Shown: positions 19,772-45,033 of the stretch, piece after piece
Layout of the letters: every line of letters starts with the position of its first letter
How positions within the stretch are numbered: the first letter of the stretch is position 1
From: an uncultured Ruminiclostridium sp.
GTDB taxonomy: Bacteria; Bacillota; Clostridia; Oscillospirales; Ruminococcaceae
NCBI GenBank assembly: GCA_947630685.1
Contig: CANRII010000003.1
Location: 1-52,865, forward strand
Direction: 5' to 3'
DNA: 52,865 nt
Notes under the pieces: generated by a model
What the model was told of the DNA's origin: nothing
Database searches by the model: none
The model's input: the letters and a program-made list of their open reading frames with translations, nothing else
Translations under genes and position numbers: made by a program

Positions 19772-19783
19772 TCAGCAAACCTC

Positions 19784-19812
19784 TTGGCTTTTTTATAAAA
19801 ATATGCTAAAAT
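19784..19812 (+). promoter_or_regulatory. Putative promoter of the LytTR regulator gene: TTGGCT-17-TAAAAT
   Basis: Lies in a 37-bp segment matching 23059-23095 at 35/37 positions. Confidence 0.6.
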
Positions 19813-19894
19813 AATATCGGCAGAACAATCTTGCATTACAGCAATAAAGCGGCGGACAAATCAAGGCCTTGTGATAATTAAAGCGGGTGAGGAT

Positions 19895-22762: not shown

Positions 22763-22767
22763 GCTTA

Positions 22768-23042
22768 GGCATGCGGGAACCGAACCCGAGCCGCCTCACG
22801 ACGATTCTTTTGGGCTATTTTTGCCCCTTGCTCCTTGACAGGCGCCAGCCTGCCTGCGTCGCAAGGAACAAAACTATCTCCAAAATCTCTCGCCGTGAGG
22901 TGCACAGCAGTTTTTACGGAGCAGATTTTCGTCAAGACAAGGAAACCGAACGAAGGCATACTCGCGTATGTCGAGCGAGGTTGACGCAGTATTGGCGGAA
23001 AGATGCCCGTAAAAACCGGCTCGGGTTCGATTCCCGCATGCC
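22768..23042 (+). mobile_element. 275-bp repeated element with ~26-bp terminal inverted repeats, copy 1 (MITE-like, unclassified)
   Basis: Ends GGCATGCGGGAACCGAACCCGAGCCG ... CGGCTCGGGTTCGATTCCCGCATGCC (one mismatch between arms); ~97% identical to the reverse complement of 43507-43781, same length. Confidence 0.85.
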
Positions 23043-23063
23043 TAGCCCCGAGAACACGACCTC

Positions 23064-23092
23064 TTGGCTTTTTTATAAAAATATGCTATTAT
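23064..23092 (+). promoter_or_regulatory. Putative promoter of the phosphatase gene: TTGGCT-17-TATTAT
   Basis: Within the 37-bp segment near-identical to the one upstream of the LytTR gene. Confidence 0.6.
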
Positions 23093-23127
23093 AATAAAAA
23101 ACGATATTTTCTTAAAGGGGCGTAAAA

Positions 23128-23595
23128 ATGTTCAGGGTAATGTTTGTATGTCACGGCAATATCTGCCGTTCGCCGATGGCGGAATATATTTTGCGGGATA
23201 TGCTTTGCAAAAAGGGCAAGGCGGAAAATTTTGTCATAAGCTCCTCTGCGACCAGCAGCGAGGAAATTTACGGCGGGCGCGGGAACCCGGTCTACCCTCC
23301 CGCTAAAGAGCAATTGCGCCGTCACGGTATAGACTGCTCCGGTAAACGCGCGGTGCAGCTTACAAAAAGCGATTATGGCAAATACGACATGTTTATCGGC
23401 ATGGACGGCATGAATATCCGCAATATGAATAGGATATTCGGCTCCGACCCCGAAAGCAAGATACACAAGCTCAAGGACTTTACGACCGGCGGCGACGTGT
23501 CCGACCCGTGGTACAGCGGCGATTTTGAGACCGCGTACAACGAGATATACGACGGCTGCAAGGCTATAGCCGAGATGATAATATCCAAGCGGTAA
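23128..23595 (+). CDS. Low molecular weight protein-tyrosine phosphatase
   Basis: MFRVMFVCHGNICRSPMAEYIL active-site loop (CxGNICRSP), DPWYSGDFETAYNEIYDGC. Confidence 0.92.
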   Translation: MFRVMFVCHGNICRSPMAEYILRDMLCKKGKAENFVISSSATSSEEIYGGRGNPVYPPAKEQLRRHGIDCSGKRAVQLTKSDYGKYDMFIGMDGMNIRNMNRIFGSDPESKIHKLKDFTTGGDVSDPWYSGDFETAYNEIYDGCKAIAEMIISKR

Positions 23596-40970: not shown

Positions 40971-41015
40971 GGCATACGGGATCAAAGCCCTACTCGGTTT
41001 TATTTCCCATATGCC
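40971..41015. repeat. Possible remnant/solo form of the 275-bp TIR element
   Basis: GGCATACGGG ... CCCATATGCC, 9/10 arm pairing, resembling the element termini GGCATGCGGG ... CCCGCATGCC. Confidence 0.4.
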
Positions 41016-43477: not shown

Positions 43478-43506
43478 ATCTTTTCTCCTTTTTCGGATTT
43501 TAATTA

Positions 43507-43781
43507 GGCATGCGGGAGTCGAACCCAAGTCGGTTTTTACGGGCATCTTTCCGCCAATACTGCGTCAACCTCGCTCGACATACGCAAGTATGCCTTCGTT
43601 CGGTTTCCTTGTCTTGACGAAAATCTGCTCCGTAAAAACTGCTTTGCACCTCACGGCGAGAGGTTTTGGAGATAGTTTTGTTCCTTGCGACGCAGGCAGG
43701 CTGGCGCCTGTCAAGGAGCAAGGGGCAAAAATAGCCCAAAAGAATCGTCGTGAGGCGGCTCGGGCTCGGCTCCCGCATGCC
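43507..43781 (-). mobile_element. 275-bp TIR element, copy 2 (inverted relative to copy 1), between pgk and tpiA
   Basis: Reverse complement matches 22768-23042 with about 8 substitutions and no indels; ends GGCATGCGGGA.../...TCCCGCATGCC. Confidence 0.85.
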
Positions 43782-43812
43782 CAAGCCCGGAAGAATCCGA
43801 GCTTAATCTATT

Positions 43813-45033
43813 TTACTTATCCTGAATTACGTCTATTCCGGGGAGCACCTTACCCTCGAGGTATTCAAGGGACGCGCCGCCGCCGGTGGAAATATGGCTC
43901 ATCTTGTCCGCAAAACCGAGCTGAGTAACAGCAGCTGCGCTGTCGCCGCCGCCGATAATGGTGGTAGCGTCGGTCTCGGCAAGAGCTTCGGCTACCGCGA
44001 TAGTACCCTTAGCGAGCACGGGGTTTTCAAATACGCCCATAGGTCCGTTCCATACGACGGTCTTGGCGTTCTTTGCCTCTGCCGCGAACAGCTCCATGGT
44101 CTTAGGTCCTATATCAAGACCCATATAATCCGCGGGCATATTGTCCGCGTCAAACATCTCAACGTCGATAGCCGCGTCGATAGGATCGGGGAATGCCTTT
44201 GCCGCCGCGGTATCAACGGGCAGCAGCAGCTTCTTGCCGTTAGCCTGAGCCTTAGCTATCATTTCCTTGCAATAATCCAGCTTTTCATCGTCAACCAGCG
44301 ACTTTCCTACTTCGCAGCCCTTAGCCTTAAGGAATGTATAAGCCATGCCGCCGCCGATTATCAGCGTATCGCACTTTTCAAGCAGGTTGGAGATAACGTT
44401 GAGCTTGTCTGCGACCTTTGCGCCGCCGAGTATAGCTACGAACGGGCGAACCGGATTTTCTACCGCGTTGCCGAGGAATTCTATCTCCTTGTTCATAAGA
44501 TAGCCTACCGCGGTCTGCTTAACATACTTGGTAACGCCTGCGGTGGATGCGTGCGCTCTGTGCGCCGAACCGAACGCGTCCATAACGAATATCTCGTCGT
44601 CTACCAGATCGGCAAGCTCTTTTGCGAAGTCGTCGCCGTTCTTGGTCTCCTCCGCGCCGCGGAAACGTGTGTTCTCCAGTACGACGATCTCGCCGTCGTT
44701 CATCTCGGCTACCGCTTTCTTAGCGTTCTCGCCTACTACGGTATCGTCCTTTGCAAAAATGACCTTTGTATCTACGAGCTGTGCCAGTCTTTCTGCCGCG
44801 GGAGCGAGGGAGAATTTATCCTCCGGTCCGTTCTTCGGCTTGCCCAGATGGGAGCAAAGCACGATCTTAGCGCCGTTTTCTACCAGCTTATTGATGGTGG
44901 GGAGCGCGGCGACGATCCTGTTGTCGTTGGTGATCTTGCCGTCCTTCAGCGGTACGTTGAAGTCAACGCGTACTAATACCTTCTTGCCCTTAACGTCAAG
45001 ATCCTCTACGTTCTTTTTGTTTAACTTGCTCAT
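43813..45033 (-). CDS. pgk: Phosphoglycerate kinase
   Basis: [70 protein letters not shown]. Confidence 0.95.

Follow-up and report, generated by a model that had tools for sequence, protein, structure and literature searches.

Analysis of the window, the whole stretch of 52,865 nt, identified the 275-bp element at 22768-23042 (+; GGCATGC...GCATGCC, with + as the core strand) as a MITE that is non-autonomous, mobile, polymorphic between sister species and without coding capacity. Its interior carries a strand-specific hairpin core common to this element and the Correia elements of Neisseria. These data make it likely that the element is a non-autonomous, double-core MITE of the Correia/NEMIS type, moved in trans and probably acting as RNA; both the mobiliser and the function of the core are what we infer.

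The ends of the element were defined by comparison of inverted repeats and of copies. As a sequence-only reading had described, the terminal inverted repeats (TIRs) were 26 bp with one mismatch; together with the flanking TA they formed 28-nt inverted ends, 96% complementary. The TIR sequence was GGCATGCGGGA.., giving the element TAGGCATGCGGGA ends. The ends proposed in that reading were exact, as homology among 59 aligned copies stopped at the junctions of TA with GGCATG and of CATGCC with TA, and an empty site was found for the window copy. Between the TIRs lay arm A, a mini-hairpin linker and arm B, in that order (Table 1), and the nested interior repeats that had been noted were located in the two arms. 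The predicted folding energy was -145.5 kcal/mol, whereas shuffled sequences gave -88.9 +/- 4.9 (+ strand, z = -11.6); the - strand gave z = -11.4. No ORF resembling a transposase was found inside the element, and ARAGORN found no tRNA, both in agreement with the earlier reading. The Rfam search that it proposed matched no family; neither gathering nor relaxed thresholds gave a relevant hit for the element, the whole window, the related loci or Correia itself.

Table 1. Positions of the element, its parts and related repeats in the window
Feature	Position	Strand	Evidence or remark
Window copy 1, MITE	22768..23042	+	TIRs, copies, homology limits, empty site
Duplicated TA target, left copy	22766..22767		single TA at G438 empty site
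Duplicated TA target, right copy	23043..23044		single TA at G438 empty site
Left TIR	22768..22793		inverted-repeat comparison
Right TIR, holding T-loop-like GGTTCGATTCC	23017..23042		inverted-repeat comparison
Arm A hairpin, constrained as - strand fold	22794..22900	-	G-U 96 vs A-C 4 (- strand)
Arm A core motif, short form, opposite strand	22818..22873	-	L001 1556-1611 (-), 27.1 bits, E 5.5e-4
Mini-hairpin TGC-NNN-GCA in conserved linker GGTGCNNNGCAGTTTT	22901..22909		alignment; partly missing in some copies
Arm B hairpin, constrained as + strand fold	22910..23016	+	G-U 103 vs A-C 3 (+ strand)
Arm B core motif, Correia-type	22926..23002	+	91.8 bits with model R1
Copy 2, between pgk and tpiA, 97% identical	43507..43781 (repeat match 43505-43786)	-	core 43547-43623 (-)
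45-bp remnant, both ends without arms	40971..41015		repeat comparison

The element's own genome (G000), a draft of 2.25 Mb in 174 contigs, contained 11 complete copies along with many fragments at contig ends, and core matches numbered 30 in the sister species G438 and 26 in the sister species G434. TA flanked both ends in 34 of the 59 aligned copies, and the rest mostly departed from it by one or two bases. Empty sites were sought by searching joined flanks in relatives. The site of the window copy read CTTAGCCCCG in G438, with one TA, against CT[TA]GGCATG..CATGCC[TA]GCCCCG here. Single-TA empty sites were found for the window copy (L001), L002, L004 and L229, and these indicate that the element inserted by TA duplication. 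The empty site of copy 2, likewise with one TA, was the pgk-tpiA gap, the left TA of copy 2 now being TG; several further empty sites were less clean, with small indels. Deletion derivatives, with TIRs only or a single arm, also exist. The TIRs, the target duplication with empty sites and the many copies lacking a transposase are those of a MITE. The copy count and empty-site comparison proposed in the sequence-only reading thus bear out its view of a non-autonomous mobile element.

The core of arm B, AGACAAGGAAA..CGNAGGC-hairpin-GTCNAGG..TTGACGCAGTAT, was also present in otherwise different elements. A covariance model, R1, was built from 12 cores, mainly clostridial, and gave 95 matches among the loci gathered, in 80 distinct rows. 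In these rows 97.1% of cells were paired and two-sided compensatory changes occurred at 23/23 core pairs; the 80-row alignment was fitted to R1, and the unfitted alignment of 12 sequences already showed such changes at 21/23 pairs. The covariation score was 0.591, compared with 0.165 after shuffling and no more than 0.108 when partners were slid. Unpaired core positions and bulges were kept across phyla.

Wobble pairs were used to assign the folded strand. Over the core as a whole, G-U outnumbered A-C by 177 to 10, and G-U was the commonest state at several pairs. Among full elements the G-U:A-C ratio was 103:3 for arm B on the + strand, while for arm A it was 96:4 on the - strand and 21:11 on the + strand. 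The TIRs, at 35:27 and 55:20, were far less polarised than the arms. These ratios are inflated, since they count sequences rather than events and since structure prediction permitted G-U pairs, and the telling part of the data is the reversal between arm A and arm B. The opposite-strand excess of G-U indicates that each arm, as modelled, is under constraint as a folded single strand, with opposite polarity in the two arms, and that this applies far less to the TIR. The earlier suggestion of a structured RNA element is favoured in part by this strand-specific covariation, which nevertheless falls on opposite strands in the two arms. Gene orientation around 57 copies, based on a simple ORF rule for gene calling, was flat (++16, --16, +-13, -+12) and showed no visible selection for a particular direction of reading.

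For decades, work on Correia repeats has treated them as a speciality of Neisseria. Short Neisseria Correia elements aligned to R1 along its full 77 positions, at 29.5 bits (E 9e-7) and 26.3 bits (E 7e-6), with the evidence drawn from copies in two gonococcal records filed among plasmids and 96-99% identical to the query. The 155-bp Correia form, which carries a 50-bp insert (PMC2229807), gave no match to R1. R1 gave 21.3 bits for an element of Cupriavidus metallidurans that has a TIR of its own, and BLASTN of the Correia short form against Cupriavidus gave 85% over 53 nt (E 3e-6). A second Psychrobacter element (L117 6582-6660) was an intermediate, bridging sequence, scoring 28.1 bits with R1 and sharing 57 of 78 aligned bases with Correia. 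TA termini, RNase III and mobility are part of known Correia biology (PMC2649163, PMC2229807, PMC10969869), the TA termini of CREE being described in PMC2229807; the repeat is found in Neisseria only, and its mobilising mechanism is called undetermined, according to PMC2649163. Two Neisseria gonorrhoeae records of ~2.17 Mb, NZ_CP119140.1 and NZ_CP119142.1, are filed as plasmids and are apparently chromosomes.

The window element and CREE/NEMIS are both non-autonomous, with TIRs of ~24-26 bp, TA duplication, many copies and the same core motif, GACAAGG..CGCAG..hairpin..CAAGG..AACGCnGTA, under R1 (26.3-29.5 bits on short CREE). Their TIRs differ in sequence: the Correia TIR, TATAGTGGATTAA.., was not matched by the TIR here. 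CREE/NEMIS have one core in 105 or 155 bp and live in Neisseria, whereas the clostridial element has two cores on opposite strands in 275 bp and, unlike them, no IHF insert. As the core is shared but the TIR differs, the element is Correia-type by its core but falls outside CREE as strictly defined. The earlier remark that it was not recognised as a named family stands for the TIRs, which are unnamed, but not for the core, which is that of Correia/NEMIS.

The core was widespread beyond its own genome. The exact core pattern occurred in 51 stretches of named genomes, mainly Oscillospirales MAGs but also Psychrobacter coccoides and two Holophagaceae, and at E <= 1e-4 R1 detected the core in 39 of the 196 Clostridia genomes sampled, representing 33 of 132 genera, at up to 24 copies each. 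The densest load found was in a MAG, Ruminococcus sp. RGIG5027 (G448, the genome of L149), with 121 core matches in ~2.7 Mb. Searching the class with a strict conserved pattern matched the element's own genome only, and no match came from viral contigs. R1 also matched elements with different TIRs in Cupriavidus, Psychrobacter, Moraxella and Holophagaceae. Two builds could be distinguished: single hairpins of ~160-175 bp, with the TIR GAACCTGT.. or, in Psychrobacter, GGGYGTGTC.., and double-arm elements of ~275-280 bp with several TIRs, which include the window element. The GAACCTGT elements had a 3-bp TNA duplication, with identical triplets in 8 of 16. A Vescimonas homologue (L049) had the same interior and unrelated ends.

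Candidates for a mobiliser were sought in the genomes themselves. IS630/mariner was rejected because DDE_3 was absent from six copy-bearing or related genomes (G000, G018, G434, G438, G009 and G014), and a Y1 transposase (RAYT) because none was found in the copy-rich G000, G018 and G434. No TIR pair with IS-like spacing or flanking a gene, such as an autonomous parent (desirable though not essential for a MITE) would have, was found in five genomes, whose assemblies are fragmented. In Psychrobacter coccoides, an IS630-type transposase in two overlapping frames (L317 711-1471) lay beside a core-bearing MITE end across a run of Ns; it is a candidate mobiliser of that MITE, the Ns leaving the link between them unestablished. 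Comparable small repeats are known. RUP of Streptococcus pneumoniae is likewise a small MITE at TA, but is attributed to IS630-Spn1 (PMC2229807), and no IS630-type gene was found in the six genomes above. ERIC/IRU and REPIN/BIME are also palindromes, repeated between genes, that may have effects at the RNA level, and the paired inverted hairpins here recall REPIN; the window element has, by comparison, longer TIRs, TA duplication and the Correia core, and the REPIN/BIME partner gene, RAYT (Y1), was absent as above. RUP and ERIC were set apart by description.

The preferred reading was weighed against three others. The core might instead act as folded single-stranded DNA, with a host or element recombinase or transposase recognising a one-strand hairpin during replication and the opposite-strand cores marking the two ends. 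Each strand has its own core near the 3' end, the core is kept while TIRs and target duplications differ (TA or TNA), and no bias relative to gene direction was seen, all as this would have it. We nevertheless consider it unlikely, because the G-U pairs that predominate at several core positions are better tolerated by RNA than by DNA, and no HUH/Y1 enzyme was found in three copy-rich genomes. Compensatory changes in long palindromes can also arise through template switching. The arms could then be the neutral filler of an ordinary MITE, their Correia likeness and compensatory changes being products of template-switch palindrome repair, to which palindromes are prone, and the TIR-only and single-arm derivatives do indicate that arms are dispensable for the persistence of some copies. 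This seems improbable, given that template switching would erase the unpaired positions and bulges conserved across phyla, that the wobble asymmetry is strand-specific and that the core recurs with unrelated TIRs.

It is least probable, and very much so, that the element derives from a tRNA gene or is a structured RNA resembling a tRNA, with a functional T-arm/acceptor-like end (RNase P, EF-Tu, CCA enzyme). The motif behind this idea does recur: several TIR families (L001, L111, L135, L123, L142) have GTTCRANTCC 12 nt ahead of the terminal TA, its purine R varying as in T-loops. T-stem pairing, however, was broken in L135, L142 and L116, and neither a cloverleaf nor a conserved T-stem was found, nor any tRNA. 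The TIRs pair with one another over 26 bp, in a helix that would be expected to outcompete the T-stem, and their wobble ratios show far less polarity than those of the arms. As stem pairing is not always kept and the ends of the Vescimonas homologue are quite different, the likeness was treated as a TIR motif that probably either binds a protein or is a relic, rather than a working tRNA mimic. The tRNA-mimicking end of the sequence-only reading thus found little support.

In the preferred reading, of a Correia-type MITE moved in trans, a putative transposase, perhaps lost or in an assembly gap, would cut at the TIRs and insert at TA. With the core on opposite strands in arms A and B, read-through in either direction would put one correctly folded core in RNA, enclosed by a long duplex of the paired TIRs. 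By analogy with reports for Correia transcripts, RNase III may bind this RNA or cut it, and such action would process or insulate flanking messages. That one core occurs in Clostridia, other Proteobacteria and Acidobacteriota, on MITEs whose ends differ, indicates that the core and not the TIR is the conserved unit. More tentatively, the Correia core may be a portable folded module recognised, as RNA or as single-stranded DNA, by a widespread host factor. Such recognition would account for its conservation in at least three bacterial phyla and its presence on MITEs whose TIRs are unrelated and whose target duplications differ; in this family it would have been duplicated in inverted form to work either way. 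The literature searched, which took in few subscription papers, held no description of a Correia core from any host other than Neisseria; the spread of the core over several phyla is thus unreported there, and the element here is read as a Correia-type variant in which the core is duplicated and inverted. The many independent copies, conserved loop positions and covariance model provide a means to test what binds the core.

Several observations concern the surroundings of individual copies. Copy 2 was inserted within the 3' half of an apparent pgk terminator hairpin (window 43786-43830; G438 empty site AAATTAAGCTCGGAT..CCGAGCTTAATT). Immediately left of L004 was a diverged second TIR-like head (AGGCGTAAGGGAACAGAACCCTAGCCCCCTCACGATAACGCC), a nested or neighbouring insertion. 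In G434, L205, L208 and L209 had other outer ends (CAGACGTTGCGGAG..CTCCGCAACGTCTA) and near-identical flanks, suggesting that a larger repeated unit surrounds the element. A 38-nt sequence (ACCTCTTGGCTTTTTTATAAAAATATGCTA..) occurred at window 19779-19816 and 23059-23096 with 95% identity, the first lying upstream of an ORF at 19871 that resembles a response regulator and the second upstream of a low-molecular-weight phosphatase-like ORF at 23128. It appears to be a duplicated promoter, and part of it was also found at G438:C22:2802.
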